DNA of 64,000 nucleotides from Deltaproteobacteria bacterium (GTDB lineage Bacteria > Myxococcota_A > UBA796 > GCA-2862545), in NCBI GenBank assembly GCA_006226595.1, contig SBGP01000054.1:1-64000 (forward strand), read 5' to 3'. The position numbers were made by a program, and so were the translations under genes. This document shows positions 4,584-44,786 of the stretch, piece after piece (the stretch's first letter is position 1; every line of letters begins with the position of its first letter). The notes under the pieces were generated by a model that made no database searches, was not told the origin of the DNA, and worked only from the letters and a program-made list of their open reading frames with translations.

Positions 4584-6028
4584 ACGCGCAGCTCTCCACC
4601 GTGGACGAGCTTCTCCTGCCACGGAGCGAGGGCTTCGGCCACTTCGCCGTCGAGGAAGGCCAGGGTCTGCTCCGGCGCGCGACCGATGAACGTGCTCGGG
4701 TCGAGCAGCTCGTCGAGATCGTCGTGGATCGGCGCGAAGAAGGCGTCGGCGCGCACGCGATCGAGCAGGTCGTTGTCCTTGCCCTCGGCCTTCACCGCGT
4801 AGCTCGCGTCCATGGCGTGCGTGCGGATGGCCTCGTGCACTTCCTGGCGGTCGGCACCGCGGCGCACCATCGCCATGATCAGGTTCTCGGTGGCCATGAA
4901 CGGAAGCTCCGAGGCGATGCGCCGGCCGATGACCGCCGGGTAGACGACCAGGCCGCCGACCACGTTCATCAGCGTCTCGAGGATGCCGTCCACGGCGAGG
5001 AAGCCCTCGGCCAGCGACAGGCGGCGGTTCGCGGAGTCGTCGAGCGTGCGCTCCATCCACTGCACGGCGGCCGTCTGGGCGGTATCCATCTGCAGGGTGA
5101 TCACGTGCCGGGACAGGGCGCACACGCGCTCGCTGCGCATCGGGTTGCGCTTGTAGGCCATGGCCGAGCTGCCGATCTGCTTCTTGCCGAAGGGCTCCTC
5201 GACTTCCTTGAGGTGGGCCAGCAGGCGGATGTCGGTGGCGATCTTGTGGGCGGTGGCGCCGAAGGAGCCGAGCGCGCACAGGATGTCGTGGTCGACCTTG
5301 CGGCTGTAGGTCTGGCCGGTCACCGCGTAGCTCTTCGCGAAGCCCATCTTCTCGGCGACGAGCTGATCGAGGCGCTCGACCTTGTCGTGGTCGCCGTCGA
5401 ACAGCGCAAGGTAGCTGCCCTGGGTGCCGGTGGTGCCCTTCACGCCGCGGAAGCGCAGGTCGTCGCGCACGCGGGTGAGGTTGCGCAGGTCCATCACCAG
5501 CTCCTGCAGCCACAGGCTGGCACGCTTGCCGACGGTGGTCAGCTGGGCGGGCTGGAAGTGCGTGAACCCGAGGGTCGGAAGCGACGCGTGCGCCCGGGCG
5601 AAGTTGCCGAGGCGGTGGATCGTGGTCGCGAGCTTGGGCAGAACGATGTCCAGGGCCTCGCGGAGCACGATCAGGTCGGTGTTGTCACCGACGTAGCAGC
5701 TGGTCGCGCCGAGGTGCACGATGGGGCGTGCGTTCGGAGCCACGTCGCCGAGCGCGTGCACGTGCGCCATGACGTCGTGACGCAGCTGCTTCTCGTAGGC
5801 GGCGGCCGCCTCGTAGTCGATGTCGTCGAGGTGGGCGCGGAGCTCGTCGAGCTGGGCGTCGCTGATCTCGAGGCCCAGCGACTGCTCGGACTCGGCAAGC
5901 GCGAGCCACAGGCGCCGCCAGGTGCGGAACTTGTGGTCGTCGGAGAAGGTGAAGGCCATCTCCGGGCTGCAGTAGCGAGTGACGAGCGGGGTCTCGTAAC
6001 GCGAGTGGCGGTCGGCGAGGTCGGACAC
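4580..6028 (-). CDS. purB: Adenylosuccinate lyase
   Basis: 482 residues from a GTG at 6028, preceded by GGAGGG four bases upstream; a longer frame upstream is only the shadow of the divergent kinase gene. The enzyme cleaves SAICAR and adenylosuccinate in purine synthesis. The fumarase/aspartase-superfamily signature appears as [11 protein letters not shown] around the middle. [15 protein letters not shown] and [19 protein letters not shown] supply the substrate-site His and the catalytic base region. The N-terminal [15 protein letters not shown] pattern resembles the longer ADSL type found in eukaryotes and some bacteria. It is first in a minus-strand run with pdxH and the YfhO-like gene. Confidence 0.95.
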
Positions 6029-6118
6029 GGGCCCTCCGGGAAGAGGGCGCAGGTAGCGCGGCCCCCGACCCGGTGCGACCGGGGTCACCGAAGCGCTACA
6101 TGGGGTATACCGGCCGCC
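6029..6118. promoter_or_regulatory. Divergent intergenic region, purB / Ser-Thr kinase
   Basis: This 90-bp gap separates the GTG of purB from the ATG of the divergent kinase gene and must hold both promoters. I see the purB ribosome site (GGAGGG on the minus strand) but no convincing -35/-10 pair. Confidence 0.4.
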
Positions 6119-7933
6119 ATGGACGGCTACGCCAAGACCTTCACTGCCCTGTGGCCCACCGTCGCCGCGGAGACGCAGGGAATCGCGCCCACCGACACGA
6201 TCCGACCGTCGCTCACCGAGCAGGACGAGTCCGAGACGATGGAGGTCCTGCTGCCCGCGGCGTCCGCGTCGTCGGCGGTACGCGCGTTCGGTCAGACCCT
6301 CGGTGAGGGTGGCATGGGCATCGTGCGCGTCGCCGAGCAGTCCTCCATGCAGCGGCAGGTCGCGGTGAAGTCGCTGCGTACCGGGGTCGCAAGTCCGGCC
6401 ATCGCCCACCGCCTGCTCCAGGAGGCGTGGGTCACGGGCTACCTCGAGCACCCGAACATCGTGCCGGTGTACGACATCGCCGAGAGCGAGGACGGCGGCC
6501 CCGTCATCCTCATGAAGCGCATAGAGGGGCGCACCTGGCAGCAGTTGATCGGCGAGGACGCGCTGATCCGCGAGCACTTCGACGTCCGGGACGTGCACGA
6601 GTGGCACCTGCGCATCCTTCTCACCGTGTGCAACGCGGTGCACTTCGCGCACCAGCACGGCGTGCTCCATCGCGACATCAAGCCCGACAACGTGATGATT
6701 GGCCGCTTCGGCGAGGTGTACCTGCTCGACTGGGGCATCGCGGTGGCCCTCGACGAGCGCCATGGGCTTCGCCTCCGCCTGGCCTCACGCGAGAAGCGCC
6801 TCGCGGGCACGCCCCGCTACATGGCACCCGAGATGGCGATCGCCGACGGACCCGCTTTCTGTGCGGCGACGGACGTGTACCTCCTCGCCTCGACGCTGTA
6901 CGCCGTGCTCACCGGTTCTCCACCGCACCAGGGTGACGACCTCGAGCAGCTTCTGTACGGCATCATCGCCTTCGAGCCGGACCATCCGGCGATTCCGCGT
7001 GCGCTCGTGCCGATCCTTCGCACGGCGATGGAGGCCGAGCCCGAGGAGCGCTACGAGAGCGCCGAGGCGTTTGCCCACGCCATCCGCGAGTACCTGGACC
7101 GGCGCGGCTCCGTGGCGCTCGCCGAGCGTGCGCAGGCCGATCTGGTGGACCTCGAGGCCGCGGTGGTCGCGGACGCGGACGAGGCCCGCGGGCTGTTCGC
7201 GCAGATCCGCTTCGCGTGCCTCCAGGCCCTTGACGAGTGGCCCCAGAACGAGGCGGCGGCAACGACGCTGCGACGGGCCCACGAGCTCGCTGTCGACCAC
7301 GCGCTGGCTCGCCGAAGCGCGGAGGCCGCGCGCACGGCCCTGGCCGAGCTCGACGATCCGGCGAGAGAAGCGCGTGTTCGCGCGCTGGAGGCGGATCTTG
7401 CGCGAGAAGCGGAAGAGCTGTCCGCGTTTCGGGTCGCCAACGACCCGACCGTCGCCGCTCGCGGGCGCACGCTATTCCTCGTGCTGATGGTGGCCTCGTG
7501 GTTCATCATGCCCGTGCTCGGGCAGCTACGCGGAGGGGCCACCTGGGGCTCGCAGCTGACGAGCTCGGTGTCCGTTCTCCTGTTCCTGGGCCTGATCGGC
7601 GGCTTCCTGCGACGCTCGCTCACGGCCACGGAGTTCAACCGTCGGTCGGCCCTGGCGCTGCTCTCGATTCCGCTCGGTCAGTTCGCGCTCGATGCGGCGC
7701 TGTATCTGCACGGCGTCACGCCGGCGGCGGCGCTGTCCGCGCGGCACGCGCTGTGGGCGGTCATCGGGCTGATGTACGCGCTGCTCGTCGCGCCCGGCCT
7801 GCTGCCAGCGGTCGCGGTCATTGCTGCGATGGCGGTGGTCGGCGCCTACGACCCGGCGCACGCCTACCTGTGGAGCCTGGTGTCCAACGTCGCCCTGCTC
7901 ACCAACGCCGTGGTGCTGTGGCGCAAGCGCTAG
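6119..7933 (+). CDS. Membrane-anchored Ser/Thr protein kinase (PknB-like)
   Basis: 604 residues. The start is the ATG at 6119; a much longer upstream frame is antisense to purB and is rejected. Kinase landmarks: glycine loop GEGGMG (62-67), ATP lysine K84, alpha-C Glu102, catalytic loop HRDIKPDN (184-191), metal site DWG (204-206, instead of the textbook DFG) and APE (236-238). Residues about 340-430 are Ala/Glu/Arg-rich helices, possibly coiled coil. The C-terminal 150 residues hold about six hydrophobic segments, so the kinase domain is N-terminal and cytosolic with a C-terminal membrane anchor, the reverse of the usual single-TM PknB plan. No extracellular sensor domain is evident. Confidence 0.92.
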
Positions 7934-33986: not shown

Positions 33987-36341
33987 CTACTTGCCGTAGT
34001 GCTCGCGGATGGTGGTGTACACCTCGCCGTAGTCGGGCACGTTGGCGACCACGAGGTCCGGCGAGCTGCTGCCGGCGGTGAGCAGGGTGACCTGGCCGTT
34101 GCCGAAGGCCTTGCCGAGCGGACCCTGATCCTGCTGGAGCGAGTCGATGCGGTTGTAGAGCACCGAGGTCGCGAACTTGAACAGGATGCCGCCGCGGAGC
34201 ACGACCCGCTCCTGCTCGACGTCGTACTGGCGGACGGCGGTCTGCCACGCGACCAGCGGCACGAAGGGCCACAGCGGCGGGAAGAGCAGCATCGGCGCGA
34301 TGCTGTTCGGAATTGCCGGCTTGGTCGTGTACTCGGCCTCGACGAAGTCGTGCTCCTCGTCGATCTGCGCGGGCTGGATGCGCCCGAGCAGCAACGAGTC
34401 CATCGCGTCGACCTTGTCGTCGATGCGCTCGATGTAGCGGCCCTCGAGAGAGTAAGGGACCTTGAGTCCGGCGGCGTTCGCCTGCTCGGCCTGGCCCTGC
34501 TGCTGCTGCTGCACGACGCGCTCGCCGGCGATGTACAGCTTGAACGTGCCCTGATCCGTGAGGGGGATGCGCACGCTCTCGACCTTCTTGATGTTGTCGT
34601 AGCGCGCGTACACCTCCTGGCGGATGAGCACGCCGGTGCGCGCCTCCACGTGCGAGGCGTGGAAGGTCAGGGACTGCTTCTGGACCCGGAGGTAGGTGAG
34701 CACCGCCATGGGGATCGGGAGCACCGCGAGCATCGGCACGAAGAGCAGGAACCACGCGCTCTGCAGCAGGCCCAGCACCACGAACACCGCGGCGGCGGCG
34801 GCGAGGAACGCGAGCAGGAACACGTTCTGGATGAACCACACCTGCGGCCCGAAGGACTGGGCAAGCTCACCCTCGGCTTCGGCGTCGGCGTCGATCCCAC
34901 ACTGCCGCAGCAGGGCCGGGAGGTTCAGCTCCTCGGCCGAGATGTGGCTCATCGTCAGCGGCATGGGCGAGCCGATGGACCAGATCTGCACGGTGAGCGT
35001 CTTGAAGAAGCCGTCGAGCGGGCTGCGAGTCAGCTGGACGCCGGTGACCTTGTCGTAGGCGAACTGCTGCTGGTTGGCGCCGATGAAGCTGTACTCGGAC
35101 TGAAGCGAGCTCTTGCCCACGGTGAACGTGGTCTTGGTCGCGCGGATGTACATGCTCACCGTCGCGATGAGCCACGCCGGCCCCGTCGGAAGGAGGAGCA
35201 GCAGCGGCACCAGGGTGCGTCCGACGTTCATCTTCAGGGTCGCGGTCCACGCGTCCTCGGCGCTGACCAGCGTGCGCGGCGCGCCGGGTCCCTTCGCCTC
35301 GGGGACGGCCTCCTCCGCATCCTCGGCGGCGTCCTCTCGCACGGCGCCCTTCTTCGGGGCGAGCTTCATGCCCTTGTCCACGACGGTGCTGATCGCCTGC
35401 TTGAGCTCGGCACCGCGCGACAGACGGCGGAACTGGATCTCGCTGCCGCTGCCCTGGCAGCTGACCTTCACGTCGTACAGGCCGAGCACCTGGTCGATGA
35501 AGGTGCGGTTGGTGCTCGCGTCCGCGATGTTCTCGGCGGGGATGAACGCGTTGTCTCGCGTGAGGAAGCCCTCGGTGTAGGTCACCGCGTCGTCGTGCAC
35601 CGTGTAGGTACGGCGGGTGAGATCGAGGTAGCGCACGGCGAGGCCGCCGAGGGTGAGCAGGCTGCTGCCGATGACGAAGGTCGCGCCGAGCACGGTGATG
35701 GCGGCACCCGCCATCGCCCCCGCCGACTCGAGGGCTCCCGCACCGACGCCGAGGAGCGCAAAACCCATCCACACCAGCGAGAAGATCACCCCGATACCGG
35801 TCTGCACGATGTCGGTCAGCGCGCCGACGAAGGTCGGCGACTCCTCGTGGAGCACCTCGGTGCGCTGCAGCGAGAACCCGTTCGCGCGCATCAGCTCCTG
35901 GATCTCCTCGTACACCTCCTCGGGACCGACGATGGACTGGAACGTGATCTCCGAGGCGGCGCTGCCCGCCGACTCGACGCGCACGTCGCCGATCTTGAAC
36001 AAGCGATACCGCAGCCACGGCAGGCGCAGGCGCACGTGGGTGATGTTGCGCATGTCGAGCTCGTTGCGGCCGTCCGAGACCAGCCCACCGCGGCGGGCCA
36101 CGAGGTGGTCACCGTGGATCTCGTAGGTCTCCTTGGTCCACGCCACGTGTGCCGCGTACGCGGCAAAGGGCACGAGGGTGACCCAGATCACGGGGATGGC
36201 CAGGAACAACAGGGAGGACACGGCGAGCGCAGCGACGGTGACCATGACGCTGAGCACGGCGCACAGCACCAGGACGCCGACGATGCGCGGCCACATGAAC
36301 CCGATGCGCACGGGTGAGAACTCTCGCGTTTCCTCGGCCAC
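33987..36341 (-). CDS. Multi-module bacterial PH-domain membrane protein (YdbS/bPH2-like)
   Basis: 784 residues from GTG 36341 with AGGAGG upstream. A pair of membrane helices alternates with PH-like modules. Each module shows the bPH2 pattern of a two-strand start (YEIHGDHLVARRGGL; YTVHDDAVTYTEGFL; FTVGKSSLQSEYSFI; LTFHASHVEARTGVL; YDVEQERVVLRGGIL) followed by a segment such as IPAENIADA, YDKVTGVQL or YNRIDSLQQ. I count five modules, where typical family members have one to three. A short Gln run (VVQQQQQGQAEQ) lies in the fourth. The role of bPH2 proteins is poorly known; membrane-lipid or envelope stress functions are suggested for some. Confidence 0.85.
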   Translation of the reverse strand: MAEETREFSPVRIGFMWPRIVGVLVLCAVLSVMVTVAALAVSSLLFLAIPVIWVTLVPFAAYAAHVAWTKETYEIHGDHLVARRGGLVSDGRNELDMRNITHVRLRLPWLRYRLFKIGDVRVESAGSAASEITFQSIVGPEEVYEEIQELMRANGFSLQRTEVLHEESPTFVGALTDIVQTGIGVIFSLVWMGFALLGVGAGALESAGAMAGAAITVLGATFVIGSSLLTLGGLAVRYLDLTRRTYTVHDDAVTYTEGFLTRDNAFIPAENIADASTNRTFIDQVLGLYDVKVSCQGSGSEIQFRRLSRGAELKQAISTVVDKGMKLAPKKGAVREDAAEDAEEAVPEAKGPGAPRTLVSAEDAWTATLKMNVGRTLVPLLLLLPTGPAWLIATVSMYIRATKTTFTVGKSSLQSEYSFIGANQQQFAYDKVTGVQLTRSPLDGFFKTLTVQIWSIGSPMPLTMSHISAEELNLPALLRQCGIDADAEAEGELAQSFGPQVWFIQNVFLLAFLAAAAAVFVVLGLLQSAWFLLFVPMLAVLPIPMAVLTYLRVQKQSLTFHASHVEARTGVLIRQEVYARYDNIKKVESVRIPLTDQGTFKLYIAGERVVQQQQQGQAEQANAAGLKVPYSLEGRYIERIDDKVDAMDSLLLGRIQPAQIDEEHDFVEAEYTTKPAIPNSIAPMLLFPPLWPFVPLVAWQTAVRQYDVEQERVVLRGGILFKFATSVLYNRIDSLQQDQGPLGKAFGNGQVTLLTAGSSSPDLVVANVPDYGEVYTTIREHYGK

Positions 36342-36835
36342 GCAACCTCCTGCGATCACCCTCGGCATACCGCGCTGACAGCCGGACTGTGCGGGACTTG
36401 TGCACGCGGTGCCCATCGTGGGTCGCTCCGACCGAGCTGTCCGCGATCTCGTCGCCATGGACCGGGCGACCGCGTGGGGTGGCGCTCGGCGCCCCGACAG
36501 TGGTCGTGCGTGCCGCAGTGCATCACCCGAGCGTACGGGTGGCGGTGGATTTTGACCGCCGAGGTCGGGGGGCCCGGGCCGACATCCGGAGCGCTGCAGT
36601 GATTCGAGAAGTGGGGGGCGCTGGCCCGAAGTCCTGGTTCGACTGCGGCATCAGAGCGGAGCCGCATCACGGTTCACTGGCCCGAACGGACCCGCACTCC
36701 CGACATTCAAGACGTGCATTGGGGACCGTGCGTGTGCCATGCTCGACGTGGCGAGCGTTGTTCCCCGAGAGCTCGCCGTTCCAGGTCGTCCCTGCTGTTG
36801 GCATGACGCCTGAGGCAACCAGGCCGGAGGGCAGC
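36342..36835. other. Gene-free region upstream of the H-NOX operon
   Basis: This 494-bp region lies between the divergent PH-module gene and the H-NOX gene. An open frame from 36314 runs into H-NOX in frame, but its translation is Arg/Pro/Ser-rich and has no domain, whereas the H-NOX family begins exactly at MYGMVNRAL (36836). The region should hold promoters for both directions. I found no convincing sigma-54 or NO-regulator site and no stable hairpin by eye. Confidence 0.5.
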
Positions 36836-37381
36836 ATGTACGGGATGGTCAATCGCGCCCTTCAGAACATGATCATCGACGAAGCTGGCGACGCTGGCTG
36901 GGGATCGGTGTGTCGCCGAGCCGGCATGGAGCCACCCGTCTTCGTGTCGATGGACACCTACGATGACGCGATCACCTACGCGCTCGTCGGGGCTGCGAGC
37001 ACGGAACTGGAGCGTGATGCAGGGGAGCTGCTCCACGCGCTCGGGCTCTACTGGATCCGGGTCACTGCAGCTGAGTCCTACGAGTCGATCTTCCACATGC
37101 ATGGCTCGTCGCTGCGGGGGTTCCTCGAGAACCTCGACCAGATGCATGCACGGCTGTCCCTGCACTTTCCAGAGATGCGTGCGCCGTCCTTCGAGGTCGA
37201 GGATGCCGAGCATGGCATGCACGTGCGCTACTGGAGCGATCGACCCGGTCTGGCCCCCTTCGTGAAGGGGCTGCTCGCCGGCTTGTGCGAGCGTTTTGGC
37301 GAACCGTACGCGGTTCGACACGTCGGTGGTCGCGACGACGGACGAGACCATGAGCTGTTCCATCTCGAGCCGACGGCCTGA
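36836..37381 (+). CDS. H-NOX heme-NO-binding sensor protein
   Basis: 181 residues, the usual length of a stand-alone H-NOX. The start at ATG 36836 follows GGAGGG and gives the family N-terminus MYGMVNRALQNMI. The proximal heme His is H104 in LENLDQMHARL, followed by FPEMRAPSFEV. The YxSxR heme-propionate motif is Y132-W-S134-D-R136. A distal Tyr like Tyr140 of the O2-binding Caldanaerobacter protein is absent (residues 139-142 are L-A-P-F), which predicts selectivity for NO over O2. It lies two bases upstream of an HNOBA histidine kinase, its probable partner, and should report NO by controlling that kinase. Confidence 0.95.
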   Translation: MYGMVNRALQNMIIDEAGDAGWGSVCRRAGMEPPVFVSMDTYDDAITYALVGAASTELERDAGELLHALGLYWIRVTAAESYESIFHMHGSSLRGFLENLDQMHARLSLHFPEMRAPSFEVEDAEHGMHVRYWSDRPGLAPFVKGLLAGLCERFGEPYAVRHVGGRDDGRDHELFHLEPTA

Positions 37382-37383
37382 CC

Positions 37384-39522
37384 ATGCTCGGAACCACCAA
37401 CTTCATTCGCGCGTTTCCGTTCTACATCGAGGTAGACCGGGAGCTCAGCGTGGTGGGGGTGGGGCCGTCCGCCGAGAAGCTGGGTCTGCGCGCACATCAG
37501 CCGCTCAAGGACCAGCTCGCGCTGGTTCGGCCCCGGCGGCCCATGACCTTCGAGTCGTTGGCAACACTCGGTTCACACCTGCTCGTGTTTTCCACGGACA
37601 ATGGGCTGCGCCTACGCGGGCAGGTCATCCAGGAGAAGCCAGAACGGCTGTTGCTGCTTCTCTCGGCCTGGATGGGCTCCTCGGCCGATCTCGACCGGGC
37701 CAACCTCACGCTCGCCGACTTCGCCCTCCACGACAGCGTCGGGGACTACGCGCTCCTGCTCTCGGGTCGTGAGCGCGATCTTCGCGAGCAGCGCTCGCTC
37801 GCGACCTCGCTCATGGATGAGCGGATGGAGCTGCAGCGAGCCTATCGGCACCTCGCCGTACAGAATGCGCTGGGGCGCTTTCTCGAGGGGGCTCCCGGGC
37901 CTAGCCACGGGGTATACGCCCGCATCATCGGCATCCTCGAGCAGGGACTCGAGGCGGTGGGTGCCGTACACCTCTTCGACGGCGAGGTCCTCCACGCCGA
38001 GGGCGTCATCCCCGACGGGCTCGAGCGTCGGCTGTCGCGCTTGCCCTCTGGCGTGCATCGCCTCGGTGAGCTGCCGTGCCTGGTGCTTCGCATCGGCAAG
38101 CGGGCCGCGGCGGTGGTGCTTCCCGCGGGCTATCGCCCCGAGGGTCTCGAGGAGGTCGCACGGGCCATCGAGCTTCGCATTGCGACGTGGCGGCGAGCGC
38201 GTGACCTCGAGCAGCGCTTGCGCGACAGTGAGGCTCAGTTTCGTCGCCTGTTCGACAAGACCTCGGACTTCCTGTTCCTCGCGAACGCCTCGGGCGAGAT
38301 CACGCTCGCCAACGAGTCCTGGGGCCCCGGCATGGAGGGCACGCAGCTGAACGAGCACGTCGTCGACGCCCCGCCCGGCGAGGTCGACCGGATGATCGCC
38401 CAGGCGTGTGCGGGCGAGCGGGTGCGGACGACCGTGGTCGTGAAGCGCGGCCCGGAGTCGATGTACTTCGAGCTACAGCTCGGGCCCGGCAACCCCGGTG
38501 TCGCCGGCTCGTTCCACGACGTCACCAGTCGCGTGAGCACCGAGAGCGCGCTCCGACATGCCGAGGCAGCGGCCGTTGCCGCGGTTCAGGCGCGAAGCGC
38601 GTTGGTGCGCTCCGCCGGCCACGAGATGCGCACGCCGCTCAGCGCGTTGATGGGCATGACCGACCTCGCGCGCACGTCCAGTGATGAGGAGCGAGCCTCC
38701 TATCTCGAGCACATCGCCGCAGGTGCCGAGCGGCTTTCTCGCCTCGTCGAGGGCACCCTCGACGTGTCCCGCATCCAGGCGGGAGAGATGCGGCTACGAA
38801 CCGCGCCCACCGATCTTGCCCAGGTGGTGCAGGCCTGCGCGTCGGGATTTCCCGACGTGGTCGTCAAGCTCCAACACGGGATGCCCGAGCTCGAGATCGA
38901 CCCGACGCGTGCTCGTCAGGTGCTCGAAGAGCTTCTGTCGAACGCGGTGAAGTTCGGGAAGGGCCGCATCGACCTTTCGGTCGCCGCTCGCCGGCTGGAC
39001 GATCAAGCCGACGTCACCATCGCGGTGGAGGATCGCGGTCCGGGCATGTCGCGCGAACAGTTGGCGCGCGTGTTCGAGCCCTACGTTCGATTCCATCACG
39101 AGGACTCCGAAGGCGTGGGGCTGGGACTGACCATCGCCCGAGCCGTGAGTCGCGCGATGAGCGGGGACCTCACCATCGAGTCGACGGGCGAGGGGACACG
39201 GGCCGTCGCCCACTGGCGAGTACCCGTCGTCGCCTCGAAGCTGCCCGCGGTGCTCGTCGTCGGCACCATGCCGGAAGCGTTGTCGCGCGAGCTCGACCGT
39301 CTCGCCGAAGTCGACACGCCGGTGGTGTTCGCTGCCGACGCGACGACCGCCCTGCGCTTCGGGCGGCAGCGTGCGTACTCCACGGTGCTCATCGACCAGG
39401 AACTTTCGGGTATGCCCGCCGAGACTCTCGCCGAGACCTTGCGGGATCTGCTCGGCCCAGACTGTTCCATCGCTCGGGTATCTCGAACCGACTCGGACTT
39501 CGCGGCGCTGCAGTTCGCCTAG
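37384..39522 (+). CDS. HNOBA-GAF-PAS hybrid histidine kinase
   Basis: 712 residues, no membrane segment. Order: HNOBA domain (about 5-135; FPFYIEVDRELSVVGVG, ALVRPRRPMTFESL, LTLADFALHDSVGDYALLL); a helical linker (130-165); a GAF-like domain (about 160-270); a PAS domain (about 283-385); HisKA with phospho-acceptor H413 in SAGHEMRTPLS; HATPase with LLSNAVKFG (N520), EDRGPGM and GVGLGLTIARAVSR; and a C-terminal receiver-like domain (620-712). That last domain keeps an Asp (D671, LIDQELSGM) but lacks the acidic pair at its start (VLVVGTM) and the conserved Lys, so it is probably a pseudo-receiver. It is coupled to H-NOX and is the likely output of NO sensing. Confidence 0.93.
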   Translation: MLGTTNFIRAFPFYIEVDRELSVVGVGPSAEKLGLRAHQPLKDQLALVRPRRPMTFESLATLGSHLLVFSTDNGLRLRGQVIQEKPERLLLLLSAWMGSSADLDRANLTLADFALHDSVGDYALLLSGRERDLREQRSLATSLMDERMELQRAYRHLAVQNALGRFLEGAPGPSHGVYARIIGILEQGLEAVGAVHLFDGEVLHAEGVIPDGLERRLSRLPSGVHRLGELPCLVLRIGKRAAAVVLPAGYRPEGLEEVARAIELRIATWRRARDLEQRLRDSEAQFRRLFDKTSDFLFLANASGEITLANESWGPGMEGTQLNEHVVDAPPGEVDRMIAQACAGERVRTTVVVKRGPESMYFELQLGPGNPGVAGSFHDVTSRVSTESALRHAEAAAVAAVQARSALVRSAGHEMRTPLSALMGMTDLARTSSDEERASYLEHIAAGAERLSRLVEGTLDVSRIQAGEMRLRTAPTDLAQVVQACASGFPDVVVKLQHGMPELEIDPTRARQVLEELLSNAVKFGKGRIDLSVAARRLDDQADVTIAVEDRGPGMSREQLARVFEPYVRFHHEDSEGVGLGLTIARAVSRAMSGDLTIESTGEGTRAVAHWRVPVVASKLPAVLVVGTMPEALSRELDRLAEVDTPVVFAADATTALRFGRQRAYSTVLIDQELSGMPAETLAETLRDLLGPDCSIARVSRTDSDFAALQFA

Positions 39523-40075: not shown

Positions 40076-40245
40076 TTTGGTGTGTTCTCCGAGTTTGATG
40101 CTCTTTTTGGGTCTTTGGTGTTCTTGTTTTGTTTAGTGTTGCAGTATTGGTGGTCATATGGGGTCCTGAGTGGGCCTGGATTGACCAATTGTTGCTTGTG
40201 GTGTGCAGTGGTGTTCGGATATTCGCCACGGTGCCAGGAGAACCG
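40076..40245 (+). promoter_or_regulatory. T-rich low-GC leader of the cytochrome peroxidase gene
   Basis: Bases 40081-40140 are about 38% G+C, against about 70% around them, and hold about 34 T but only about 3 A on the plus strand. The block 40141-40245 is also below average. It ends with a good ribosome site (CAGGAGA) before the ATG at 40246. This is most likely the promoter and leader of the peroxidase gene. The T/A asymmetry could mean a U-rich leader RNA. Confidence 0.45.
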
Positions 40246-41370
40246 ATGACCCGTACCGCCCTGCTCTCGCTCGCCCTCGTGGCGTGCAAGCCCGCCGCTG
40301 AGGAGACCCCCGAGCTCGGAAGCCACGACTACGAAGTGACGCTGCCCCAGCACTACACCGAGGGCATCAGCGGTATGCCACCGGGCTTCCAGGCCGCGAC
40401 CGACGAGGACAACACGCCGGCGGACAACCCGGTGACCAATGCGGGTGCGCAGCTCGGTCGCGTGCTGTTCTACGACGTGGATCTCTCGCAGAACCGCACG
40501 ATCGCCTGTGCGAGCTGCCACCAGCAGGCCCACGGCTTCTCGGACCCCGACGTGCTTTCCGTGGGTTTCGAGGGCGGCACCACCGGTCGCCACTCGATGG
40601 GCCTGACCAATGCCCGCTTCTACGCGAACGGACGGTTCTTCTGGGATCAGCGCGCTGAGACCCTCGAGGCCCAGGTGCTCATGCCGATGCAGGACCCGGT
40701 CGAGATGGGCATGACCCTCGACGAGGTCGTCGCGCGCGTGGAAGAAGACGAGCGCTACGCGCCGCTGTTCGAGCAGGCCTTCGGCGACGCCACGGTGAGC
40801 TCGGACCGCATCTCCCGGTCCATCGCCCAGTTCGTGCGCAGCATGGTGAGCACCACCAGCCGCTATGACGAGGGCCGCGCGCAGGTCACCGACATCCTCG
40901 ACGACTTCCCGAACTTCACCGCCGACGAGAACGCCGGAAAGCGCCTGTTCTACGCGCCGCCGCCGATGGGGGGGCTCGGCTGCGCCCATTGCCACGGTAG
41001 CGATGCGCAGGTCGGCATCGGCGCGATCAGCAACGGTCTCGACGCGACGGTGACCGACGAGGGCTACGGCGCCGTGAGTGGCGTCGCCGCCGACATGGGC
41101 ACCTTCAAGGCCCCGTCCCTGCGCAACGTCGCGGTGCGTGCGCCGTACATGCACGACGGACGCTTCGCGAGCATCGACGAGGTCATCGAGCACTACTCCA
41201 GCGGCGTGCAGTACCACGCGACGCTGTTCCCGTTCATGACCGACGGGGCGGGCAATGCGGTGCCGCTGAACCTGACGGCGCCCGAGAAGGCGCAGCTCAA
41301 GGCCTTCCTCGTCACCCTCACCGACGAGGCGATGCTCGAGGACCCGAAGTTCAGCGACCCCGGCTGGTAG
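40246..41370 (+). CDS. Di-heme cytochrome c peroxidase / MauG-family lipoprotein
   Basis: 374 residues; ATG 40246 follows CAGGAGAACCG. Lipobox LALVAC. Two c-type heme sites are present: CASCH (about residue 90) and CAHCH (about 248). GRVLFYDVDLSQNRTIACASCHQQAHGFSD and TFKAPSLRNVAVRAPYMHDGRF are diagnostic of the bacterial CCP/MauG family. It should reduce H2O2 or modify a protein substrate in the periplasm, tethered to a membrane. The long T-rich leader and the upstream NO-sensing pair make stress control plausible. Its 3' end overlaps the opposite RNase J-like gene by 20 bp. Confidence 0.93.
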   Translation: MTRTALLSLALVACKPAAEETPELGSHDYEVTLPQHYTEGISGMPPGFQAATDEDNTPADNPVTNAGAQLGRVLFYDVDLSQNRTIACASCHQQAHGFSDPDVLSVGFEGGTTGRHSMGLTNARFYANGRFFWDQRAETLEAQVLMPMQDPVEMGMTLDEVVARVEEDERYAPLFEQAFGDATVSSDRISRSIAQFVRSMVSTTSRYDEGRAQVTDILDDFPNFTADENAGKRLFYAPPPMGGLGCAHCHGSDAQVGIGAISNGLDATVTDEGYGAVSGVAADMGTFKAPSLRNVAVRAPYMHDGRFASIDEVIEHYSSGVQYHATLFPFMTDGAGNAVPLNLTAPEKAQLKAFLVTLTDEAMLEDPKFSDPGW

Positions 41371-42688
41371 GCCGGCCTTCGACGCGCCGCACGCGCCCGG
41401 TCATCGCCTTGCCGACGAGGGTGGGGACGCCGGGCGCGAGTCGCACCAGGTCGCCGTTGCGGCAGCGCAGCGCCCCCAGGCCCATCGACTCGGCGAGCTC
41501 CGCGTGGGCCTCGAGCTTCTTGGGCGTGCCGTGGGTCGGGACCACGGTCTGCGGCTGGACCCAGCGGTAGAGCGTGCGCAGCTCGTCTCGCCGGGGGTGT
41601 CCGCTGACGTGGATGTCGGCGTCGTCGGGGCCGAGCACGGTGACTTCCTTCTCGCGAAACAGCGTGCGCAGGCGCTCTACGAACAGCTCGTTGCCCGGGA
41701 TGATGCGGGCCGACAGCACCACGGTGTCGCCGGGGTCGAGGTACACGTCGTTGCGGCCGTCCTCGGCGAGGCGAGACAAGGCGGCGCGCGGCTCGCCCTG
41801 GGAACCGGTGCACATCAGCAGCACCTTCTCGGGGGGCAGGAAGCCGAAGTCCCGCGTGGACACCAGCGTGGGCACGTCGTCGAGGTAGCCGGCGGCGCGA
41901 GCGGCGCGCACGGTGCGGTCCATCGACCGGCCCATGAGCACCGGGTGCCGTCCGAGGGACTCCGCGAGCAGGGCCAGGGTCCGCAGCCGCGCCACATTGC
42001 TTGCGAAGAAGCTCACGGCGATACGCCCGGGACGGTCGGCGAGCAGCTGCCGCAGCGGCTCGACCACCTGGGACTCCGAGCCGGTCCAGCCCTCTTCGTC
42101 CGCGTTGGTGGAGTCGCTGACCACCGCGTGGATCGTCTCTCCCGCGAGGGCCTCGAGGCCAGCCCGATCGAGGTCCAGGCCGATCAGCGGGTTGGCGTCG
42201 AGCTTGAAGTCGCCGGTATGCAGCACCGTCCCCGCGGGAGTGCGCAGCACCAGCGCGCCCATCTCCACGGTGCTGTGGGTGAGGGGGATGCGCTGGATGT
42301 CGAACGGGCCGATGCGCAGCCGGCATCGCTCATCGAGTAGCCGCACGGGCACGCGGTTGGCGAGGCCCTTTTCCTTGAGCTGCTCCCGCAGCATCGCCGC
42401 CGCAAACCGAGTGGCGTACACGGGGCAGCGCAGCTTCGGCCACAGGTCGGCGACGGCACCGAGGTGGTCCTGGTGCGCGTGGGTGAGGACGAGCCCGTCG
42501 AGCTTGTCGCGCCGCGCCGCGATGTAGCTCACGTCGGGCATCCACCCGTGGGTCTCGAGCCCGTCGCGCCGGAACATGACGCCGCAGTCCACCATCAGCC
42601 AGCGTCCTGCGTGGGCGTAGAGGTTCAGGTTCATGCCGATCTCGCCGGTACCACCGAGCGGCAGGAAATGAAGGGCGTCGTGGTCCAT
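41351..42688 (-). CDS. Ribonuclease J-family metallo-beta-lactamase nuclease
   Basis: 445 residues. The beta-lactamase core is intact: HFLPLGGTGEIGMNLNLY, metal motif THAHQDHLGA (HxHxDH), PLTHSTVEMGALVL, HTGDFKLD (Asp), then the beta-CASP part with SDSTNADEEG, MCTGSQGEPRAALSRL, SARIIPGNE, DIHVSGHPRRDEL and PTHGTPKKL. RNase J usually has 550-560 residues. This protein lacks most of the C-terminal domain that supports dimer or tetramer formation, so it may be a shorter subtype. Its start codon overlaps that of the divergent cyclase (CATG). Confidence 0.9.
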   Translation of the reverse strand: MDHDALHFLPLGGTGEIGMNLNLYAHAGRWLMVDCGVMFRRDGLETHGWMPDVSYIAARRDKLDGLVLTHAHQDHLGAVADLWPKLRCPVYATRFAAAMLREQLKEKGLANRVPVRLLDERCRLRIGPFDIQRIPLTHSTVEMGALVLRTPAGTVLHTGDFKLDANPLIGLDLDRAGLEALAGETIHAVVSDSTNADEEGWTGSESQVVEPLRQLLADRPGRIAVSFFASNVARLRTLALLAESLGRHPVLMGRSMDRTVRAARAAGYLDDVPTLVSTRDFGFLPPEKVLLMCTGSQGEPRAALSRLAEDGRNDVYLDPGDTVVLSARIIPGNELFVERLRTLFREKEVTVLGPDDADIHVSGHPRRDELRTLYRWVQPQTVVPTHGTPKKLEAHAELAESMGLGALRCRNGDLVRLAPGVPTLVGKAMTGRVRRVEGRPTSRGR

Positions 42689-44786
42689 GCGCGCTCGTAA
42701 CCCTGCGACGACTCGGGGTAGCCTGCCGTGGGGAGGTTCTCTGGACGAGACGAGGTCAGCGCCCCTGTCGTTGCGCTTTGCGATGGTCGCCGTGCTCGGA
42801 GTGGGCATCGCTGCCGCGTCTCTCGGTACGAGTGCGCTGTGGCAGCGGCACAGCGAGACGGCCCTCACCGAGCTTGGCAACCAGCTGCGCACACAGCTGC
42901 TGCACCGCGTCCAGGACAACCTCGCGGCGCATCTCGCGGCACCGATCCAGGCGAACCACGTGATGGAGACGGCGCTCGAGCACGGCCTCGACCCGAGCGA
43001 CCCGGTGCGAACCGCCGACCAGATGCTCGACGTGCTCGACACGCTGCACGTCGACTACGTGCAGGTGGGCTTCGCCGAGGGCGGTTTCGTCGGCGCCGAA
43101 CGCCTTCCCTCGGGCGAGCCGCGGCTCGCGTTTACCGAGGGACGCCAGGCAGGCACGCTCACGAGCTACGCGCTTACACCAGAAGGCGGCCTCGGGGCCG
43201 TCGACAACGCCGTGCCCTACGACGCGCGCGTTCGGCCGTGGTTCCGCGCTGCTGCCGATTCCAGGGCCGTGGCCTGGTCGCCGATCTACCTCATCGCCAA
43301 CCCGCCGCCGCGGCTCGGCATCACCCTCGCTGAGCCCGTCTACGGCGACAGCGGTGAGCTGGCTTACGTGGTCGCCACCGACCTCATCGTTTCGAGCTTC
43401 TCCAAGTTCCTCGGCGAGCTCGACCTCGGCGTGGACGGCCGCATCGCTGTGATCGACTCGGACGGCTTCCTCGTCGCGAACTCGACCGGTGAGCCGCTGC
43501 TCGCGCTGGACGGCGACCAGGCCCGTCGCGTGAAGGGCGCGGACAGTCGCGATCCCATCCTCGCCGCGGTCTCCGAACACCTGGTCCGCTCCGGTCGCCT
43601 CGGCTCGCTGACCGAGGACTGGCTGTTCGATCTCGACGTCGACGGCGAGCGTCAGCTGGTCGAGGTGTCCCCGGTCGCGAACCGCAAGCTGCCGTGGGTC
43701 GCGGTGGTCACCGTTCCCGAAGCCGCGGTGCTCGGCGCGGTGCACCGCTCGGCGCGCGATACCCTCGGTCTGTCGGCGCTCGGCGTGTTCCTCGCCTTCG
43801 TGCTCGGTGCGCTGGTCAACCGGCGCATCACCCGCCCCCTGGACCGCGTGACCGAGGACCTCCAGAAGGTGGCGCGCTTCGAGCTCGAACCGGCGCCGCC
43901 GTCGGGCACGCCCTTCGCCGAGGTCGCGGCGATCGAGGACGCCACCGAGCGGATGAAGCGCGGCCTGCGCTCGTTCGAGCGCTACGTGAGCTCTGACCTC
44001 GTGCGCTCGCTGATCCGGCACAACCGCGAGGCTTCGCTCGGCGTCGAGCCCGTCGCGGTCACCGTGTTCTTCTCGGACATCGAGGGCTTCACCACCCTCG
44101 CCGAACAGCTCGATCCCGACGTGCTCGTCGACATCGTCGGCGCATATCTCGGCGAGTGGTCGAACCTGATCCTGTTCTCGGGCGGCACCGTGGACAAGTT
44201 CATCGGCGACGCGATCATGGCTTTCTGGAACGCGCCAGAAGAGGTGGAAGACCACCCCAGCGTCGCCTGCGAAGTGGCGCTCGCTTGCCAGGAGCGACTC
44301 GCCGCCCTGAACCGGGAGTGGGAGGCCCGCGGCCTGCCGCGCATCCACTCGCGGATCGGGCTGCACACCGACACCGCGCTCGTCGGTAACCTCGGCTCCA
44401 TGCAGCGCATGGACTACACGGTCGTCGGCGATGGCGTGAACCTCGCGAGCCGCATCGAGGGTCTCAACAAGAACTACGGGACGAGCATCCTGATCAGCGA
44501 GGAGCTGCGTGCCGCCGTGGGGGAGCGCTTCGTAGTGCGGCCGGTGGACCGGGTGCGAGTGAAGGGCCGGCAGGAAGAGACGACGGTGTACGAGCTGGTG
44601 GCCCGTGCTGAGACCGCGTCCGAGGCCCAACGAGCGCTGGCCCGAGCGGCCGAGGCGGCGTTCGCCGCGTTCCTCGACGGGCGCTATGCCGAGGCGCGAG
44701 CCGGGTTCGAGAAGCTCTCGGCCGATGGCGACCAGGCCTCGGGAGTGCTCGCCACCCGCTGTGCGGTCGCGCTCAGCCGCGGATGA
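42687..44786 (+). CDS. Cache-HAMP class III adenylate cyclase
   Basis: 699 residues from ATG 42687. This start overlaps the divergent RNase J-like start. A start further in, near CTG 42741 after GGGGAGG, would give a cleaner N-terminus (DETRSAPLSLRFAMVAVLG). Order: membrane helix, large extracellular dCache-type sensor (VPYDARVRPWFRAAADS), second helix, HAMP (RRITRPLDRVTEDL), cyclase. Catalytic residues: metal Asp in FFSDIEGFTTL and FIGDAIMAF, Lys in TVDKFIGD, Asn/Arg in GVNLASRIE. The Lys plus Thr (in MDYTVVGDG) at the base-recognition sites fits class IIIb adenylate cyclases. A short Ala-rich helical tail follows. Confidence 0.93.
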   Translation: MRARNPATTRGSLPWGGSLDETRSAPLSLRFAMVAVLGVGIAAASLGTSALWQRHSETALTELGNQLRTQLLHRVQDNLAAHLAAPIQANHVMETALEHGLDPSDPVRTADQMLDVLDTLHVDYVQVGFAEGGFVGAERLPSGEPRLAFTEGRQAGTLTSYALTPEGGLGAVDNAVPYDARVRPWFRAAADSRAVAWSPIYLIANPPPRLGITLAEPVYGDSGELAYVVATDLIVSSFSKFLGELDLGVDGRIAVIDSDGFLVANSTGEPLLALDGDQARRVKGADSRDPILAAVSEHLVRSGRLGSLTEDWLFDLDVDGERQLVEVSPVANRKLPWVAVVTVPEAAVLGAVHRSARDTLGLSALGVFLAFVLGALVNRRITRPLDRVTEDLQKVARFELEPAPPSGTPFAEVAAIEDATERMKRGLRSFERYVSSDLVRSLIRHNREASLGVEPVAVTVFFSDIEGFTTLAEQLDPDVLVDIVGAYLGEWSNLILFSGGTVDKFIGDAIMAFWNAPEEVEDHPSVACEVALACQERLAALNREWEARGLPRIHSRIGLHTDTALVGNLGSMQRMDYTVVGDGVNLASRIEGLNKNYGTSILISEELRAAVGERFVVRPVDRVRVKGRQEETTVYELVARAETASEAQRALARAAEAAFAAFLDGRYAEARAGFEKLSADGDQASGVLATRCAVALSRG

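Follow-up and report, generated by a model that had tools for sequence, protein, structure and literature searches.

A gene pair of the kind described here bears on the structural question of how an NO signal passes from a stand-alone bacterial H-NOX to a separate partner, and structures of bacterial H-NOX proteins with their cognate partners are wanted (PMC8196705). In the beta subunit of animal soluble guanylate cyclase (sGC), the PAS (HNOBA) domain is touched at Arg258, Arg305 and Lys307 by Asp102 and Asp106, which lie on the heme-ligand helix (PMC8196705); NO causes this helix to shift and the coiled coil to straighten (PMC8196705, PMC6839917). A crystal structure of the HNOBA domain of a Nostoc punctiforme kinase exists (PMC2828450, PMC8196705), and HNOBA with its following helix forms the N-terminus of a soluble kinase in Nostoc, as it does in the kinase studied here (PMC2828450). 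Shewanella (HnoX/HnoK) and Vibrio (H-NOX/HqsK) likewise possess a stand-alone H-NOX beside a kinase: the activity of these kinases falls with NO-bound H-NOX, which inhibits its partner HqsK, and HqsK passes phosphate from a working receiver to LuxU (PMC6759604). Partners that carry HNOBA would allow tests of the sGC model, with H-NOX seated on PAS and a straightening coiled coil, on two separate soluble proteins.

The pair lies in the window, i.e. the whole 64,000-nucleotide stretch of DNA that was analysed, on contig 84 of a 7.2 Mb host genome in 117 contigs (Table 1). It shares gene order and H-NOX clade with the Nostoc pair of H-NOX (Alr2278) and HNOBA kinase, but the Nostoc kinases in our data are either short HNOBA-HisKA-HATPase proteins of about 490 aa or much longer, whereas the window kinase has a stretch of 257 residues from HNOBA to HisKA and a pseudo-receiver tail. 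With animal sGC beta-1 it shares the H-NOX, HNOBA/PAS and coiled-coil families and counterparts of the Arg258, Lys307 and Asp102 contacts; sGC beta-1, however, is a single polypeptide with a cyclase, in contrast to two genes and a kinase here. HnoK and HqsK resemble the window kinase by their H-NOX partnership, the Shewanella H-NOX is a distant relative of the window H-NOX, and in place of the working receiver of HqsK the window kinase bears a pseudo-receiver.

Table 1. Position of the H-NOX gene, the kinase gene and the domains of the kinase in the window
Feature	Position	Strand	Basis
Shine-Dalgarno-like GGAGGG, 4 bases 5' of the H-NOX start codon	36826..36831	+	sequence reading
Stand-alone H-NOX, 181 aa	36836..37381	+	Pfam HNOB, Alr2278 H-NOX PDB match, alignment A1
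HNOBA histidine kinase, 712 aa	37384..39522	+	ORF reading, Pfam
HNOBA and start of signalling helix, residues 9-144	37408..37815	+	Pfam, cross-phylum profile, phmmer, model
Long helix (coiled coil/signalling helix), residues 118-168	37735..37887	+	AlphaFold2 model, sGC beta-1 alignment
Small alpha/beta domain, residues 173-254	37900..38145	+	AlphaFold2 model, pLDDT about 40-76
PAS-like domain, residues 290-384	38251..38535	+	PAS_4 sub-threshold match, model strands
HisKA, residues 403-467	38590..38784	+	Pfam 1.1e-14
HATPase_c, residues 506-612, N/G1/G2 boxes	38899..39219	+	Pfam 2e-22
Truncated pseudo-receiver, residues 622-712	39247..39519	+	alignment with 11 sister-kinase receivers

The H-NOX gene ends in TGA and is separated only by the two bases 'cc' from the ATG of the kinase gene at 37384. 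No Shine-Dalgarno sequence belonging to the kinase gene itself was seen on reading the sequence, and its translation is probably coupled to that of the H-NOX gene. Because the whole genome yields a single HNOB match and a single HNOBA match, the adjacency of the two genes is not a chance one. The nearest long upstream gene (33987-36458) is oriented opposite to H-NOX. On the strand of the pair, a di-heme cytochrome c peroxidase/MauG-like gene (40129-41370, +) follows about 0.6 kb downstream of the kinase, and 3 kb downstream there is a class III nucleotide cyclase (42687-44786, +) whose sensor part is dCache-like. It has the usual ATP-type Lys and Thr, and no evidence here ties it to H-NOX. No response regulator adjoining the pair was seen in the annotated part of the window. 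The host genome gave no NO synthase and only a marginal, partial match to Cytochrom_D1.

The H-NOX protein matches the Pfam profile HNOB (PF07700) from position 1 to 162 of 163 with 139.6 bits (1.1e-40; cut-off 25.5). Its closest PDB match is the Nostoc Alr2278 H-NOX, aligned over the full length (2.2e-43), followed by sGC beta-1 (2e-26), with the Shewanella H-NOX far behind (2.6e-4). The hallmarks of heme binding, namely the heme ligand H104, P117 and the motif Y132-x-S134-x-R136, are present and are invariant or nearly so across the 32 sequences of alignment A1, from which we infer that the protein binds heme. The kinase starts with HNOBA (PF07701; 43.5 bits, cut-off 23.4), and an out-group HNOBA profile, built only from the cross-phylum loci of our GTDB scan, scores 98 bits over residues 9-144. 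A phmmer search with residues 1-160 found moth sGC beta-1 (2.3e-8) as well as 2p08 (1.9e-4) and 2p04 (3.1e-4), both labelled 'signal transduction histidine kinase' and presumably the N. punctiforme HNOBA-kinase structure. In the AlphaFold2 model of the kinase (mean pLDDT 80) most of HNOBA exceeds 90, and residues 1-171 superimpose on residues 207-401 of NO-activated human sGC beta-1 with a Z score of 18.1 over 171 residues (rmsd 7.7). The presence of a full HNOBA domain at the N-terminus of the kinase is thus beyond reasonable doubt. These results bear out a preliminary description of the locus, made before any database search, in several respects: a complete H-NOX with H104 and YxSxR at 132-136, agreed upon by the full HNOB profile and the full-length Alr2278 alignment; its position two bases ahead of the kinase; and a soluble kinase beginning with HNOBA, which had been proposed for residues 5-135 and is recovered by Pfam, PDB sequence search, out-group profile and fold comparison alike.

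The kinase core is, as judged by its conserved residues, intact: the phospho-acceptor H413 (codon 38620-38622) is invariant in alignments A2 and A3, as are N520, D550, G552, G554, G579 and G581 in the aligned HATPase_c domains. The tail is a different matter. Aligned with the 11 sister receivers, it keeps D671 and a Ser at the Thr/Ser site, while Gly-Thr takes the place of the acidic pair and the half with Lys-Pro is absent; Pfam gives no Response_reg match on the kinase. A frameshift was considered as the cause of this truncation and rejected, because other frames hold no continuation of the receiver. Phosphorylation of the tail in the normal way is probably precluded, and a role in tuning or positioning the kinase is more likely for it than one in phosphate relay. 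Since the tail is a truncated pseudo-receiver, the protein can be called a 'hybrid kinase' only by descent.

Between HNOBA and HisKA lie 257 residues, whereas sister kinases of the simplest build (L184) have about 17 there; many sisters carry PAS or GAF domains recognized by Pfam at this place. For residues 290-384 the PAS_4 match (17.1 bits, 0.0068) stays below its cut-off of 23.1, and the AlphaFold2 model shows PAS-like strands with pLDDT 77-87. No GAF match at E<=1 was obtained from Pfam anywhere in the kinase, and a profile-profile comparison with the GAF domains of sister proteins came back empty; a six-row alignment (A5) was of poor quality. Modelled alone, residues 173-254 reach a pLDDT of 61, and their best Foldseek matches are MglB/Roadblock proteins at an insignificant E of 0.02. 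We therefore claim neither a MglB/Roadblock nor a GAF identity for this part: the fold matches are insignificant and no profile recognizes it. Of the order HNOBA-GAF-PAS-HisKA-HATPase-receiver given in the preliminary description, HNOBA, HisKA and HATPase_c stand, whereas GAF is unproven, PAS is weak and the receiver is truncated; the term 'hybrid' is borne out by receiver ancestry in the alignment, but not by the missing acidic pair and Lys half or by a Response_reg match. A search of 58 relatives found no orthologues of the whole kinase, only paralogues of the kinase core; as individual features the window kinase has its longer middle part and its pseudo-receiver.

How the two proteins may communicate is indicated by residues at the interface known from sGC. 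By alignment, Arg258, Arg305 and Lys307 of sGC beta correspond to R49, R76 and R78 of the kinase, and Asp102, Asp106 and His107 to D101, A105 and R106 of the H-NOX. Counted as sequences and not as independent events, Arg or Lys occupies the R49 position in 108 and the R78 position in 109 of 121 HNOBA proteins, Asp the D101 position in 83 of 112 paired H-NOXs, and position 106 is Arg in 97/112 paired versus Glu in 23/35 unpaired H-NOXs. The contact network is only partly that of sGC, because Asp106 is not kept (Ala105 in the window H-NOX) and Arg305 is poorly conserved across bacterial HNOBAs. Docking of H-NOX in trans on HNOBA through part of the sGC network, with a helix relay into HisKA, is supported by these comparisons. 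That HNOBA is the likely docking or relay site had been suggested beforehand, and the clade-wide adjacency of the two genes and the retained interface residues speak in its favour.

We consider it likely that the pair forms a two-gene NO switch, in which NO-bound H-NOX acts through HNOBA and the coiled coil on kinase activity. The heme of H-NOX, ferrous and ligated by H104, would bind NO; the iron-histidine bond would break and the helix carrying H104 would move. H-NOX would sit in trans on the PAS-like HNOBA domain of a dimeric kinase, as beta H-NOX does on beta PAS in sGC, and this helix movement could pass via HNOBA and the following coiled coil to the HisKA helices and alter autophosphorylation at H413. 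By analogy to HqsK, a lowering of autophosphorylation by NO-bound H-NOX is the likelier sign, yet the sign may not carry over, because HqsK and HnoK, on which such effects were tested, may lack HNOBA. A response regulator encoded at another locus of the genome presumably receives the output.

Other explanations of the locus have to be weighed against this switch. The H-NOX could be a sensor of O2 or of heme and redox state acting on the same HNOBA relay, given that O2-binding H-NOXs are known, as well as one responding to heme loss and oxidation (PMC9814294, PMC7108781). However, the closest solved relatives of the window protein are Nostoc Alr2278 and sGC beta-1, and O2-sensitive H-NOXs are described as effector-fused and from obligate anaerobes, whereas stand-alone H-NOXs, from aerobes and facultative anaerobes, are described as NO sensors (PMC8196705); we regard a sensor of this kind as improbable. 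Somewhat unlikely, too, is that the kinase integrates NO with a second ligand by means of its alpha/beta and PAS-like domains and that H-NOX alone has little effect. The length of the HNOBA-HisKA stretch relative to L184-type sisters and the PAS or GAF domains in many other sisters would fit such a double input, but neither middle domain has a confident family match and most PAS domains are without a known ligand (PMC8196705).

Alternatively, the kinase might be decaying, a former hybrid kinase broken by the loss of half its receiver and belonging to a system that no longer signals. Apart from the truncation itself, a genome of the same genus that lacks HNOBA, and whose H-NOX falls in another clade, could be taken in this sense. 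Nevertheless, all kinase boxes are intact, the frame is open over 712 codons with a third-position G+C of 0.83 in the tail versus 0.84 overall, and other frames hold no remnant of a receiver, and decay is improbable. The NO switch remains our preferred reading.

The window pair has many counterparts. Iyer et al. 2003 (BMC Genomics 4:5) reportedly noted bacterial HNOBA genes beside HNOB genes. Among 379 genomes of the phylum, 75 possess HNOB and 54 any part of HNOBA; Pfam HNOBA matches confined to about profile positions 162-216 span the coiled coil alone, and we did not take them as HNOBA. An HNOBA protein follows directly on the same strand at 39 of the 78 H-NOX ORFs of this sample: 31 of these partners are kinases, 3 are GGDEF-EAL proteins, 4 are class III cyclases and 1 is cut by a contig end. 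In the nearest 80 GTDB loci, HNOBA follows 79 of 81 H-NOX frames, a proportion biased by a query alignment that was itself made of paired H-NOXs. The bias is partly removed by the H-NOX tree, because it separates paired from unpaired H-NOXs: a set of 117 rows holds 112 paired and 5 unpaired sequences, and the other holds 35 unpaired H-NOXs of the phylum (support of the split 99/95), mostly situated before proteins that start with a coiled coil and are without HNOBA. The paired GTDB loci belong to Cyanobacteriota, Myxococcota, Chloroflexota, Planctomycetota, Verrucomicrobiota, Acidobacteriota, Pseudomonadota, Actinomycetota, Gemmatimonadota, Bacteroidota (Sphingobacteriales) and Eremiobacterota; direct succession of H-NOX and HNOBA thus extends over at least 10 phyla, with only 3 HNOBA proteins lacking a preceding H-NOX. 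The pairing is not rare, and the window pair is ordinary within its clade. It is patchy even within its own family.

Some members of the unpaired set depart from the usual pattern: in 6 of the 35 the position of the heme-ligand His is Ser, Ile or Val in the alignment. The same-genus genome (G001) has its H-NOX (L083:2108-2788, +) in this other clade, followed by a protein that starts with a coiled coil and lacks HNOBA. One HNOBA protein (L142:3821-6340, +) has no H-NOX neighbour, and no HNOB was found in its genome (G374). A locus of the Planctomycetaceae (L230) has tandem H-NOX genes (4967-5950, + and 5581-6564, +) before one HNOBA kinase.

Both the pair of genes and the kinase with HNOBA belong, accordingly, to known kinds. 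The preliminary description had said as much of H-NOX/kinase pairs and HNOBA kinases, in agreement with the Nostoc HNOBA structure and with H-NOX/kinase operons (PMC6759604), and the family search it proposed has returned the clade-wide adjacency to H-NOX. Its term 'little-studied' is fair for function, but does not apply to the pair or the kinase as kinds. No paper dealing with myxobacterial HNOBA kinases or with HNOBA cyclases from bacteria emerged from a search of the open-access literature.

The diversity of partners allows a broader, more tentative reading, which we hold as possible: HNOBA may be a general plug-in adaptor on which one H-NOX clade docks in trans, retaining some of the Arg/Lys-Asp contacts of sGC while outputs are exchanged in evolution among kinase, GGDEF-EAL, SpoIIE phosphatase and class III nucleotide cyclase, with the pseudo-receiver as an internal regulator in the present case. 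The partners with HNOBA-GGDEF-EAL (L112, L120, L121, L169, L173 and L227) have the same cassette as the window, with c-di-GMP enzymes instead of the kinase. A locus of Candidatus Eremiobacterota has an HNOBA-PAS-SpoIIE phosphatase with HATPase_c_2 beside H-NOX (L186:2506-4647, +). If the adaptor reading is true, the cyclase-bearing members would correspond, as pairs of bacterial genes, to the soluble guanylate cyclase of animals. This form of the cassette is more interesting than the window pair.

Class III cyclases have a pair of metal-binding Asp residues and an active-site Asn and Arg, and a Lys with a Thr partner is typical of the ATP-using enzymes. A gene for HNOBA with a class III cyclase stands directly after H-NOX at L095:4408-5934 (+), L104:781-2187 (-), L105:2107-3444 (+), L106:1692-3029 (-) and L107:1-669 (-, cut off). 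Residues 112-393 of the L104 protein align with sGC beta-1 306-602 (5.9e-11) through the HNOBA helix, the coiled coil and the catalytic domain, and its catalytic domain alone is nearer to bacterial adenylate cyclases than to sGC. To judge from their domains, these loci are a two-gene sGC-like unit in bacteria, whose cyclase may use ATP or GTP. Both metal Asp and the active-site Asn and Arg are present in the alignment of the HNOBA cyclases; the ATP-type Lys position holds Gln or His, and that of its Thr partner Ser.
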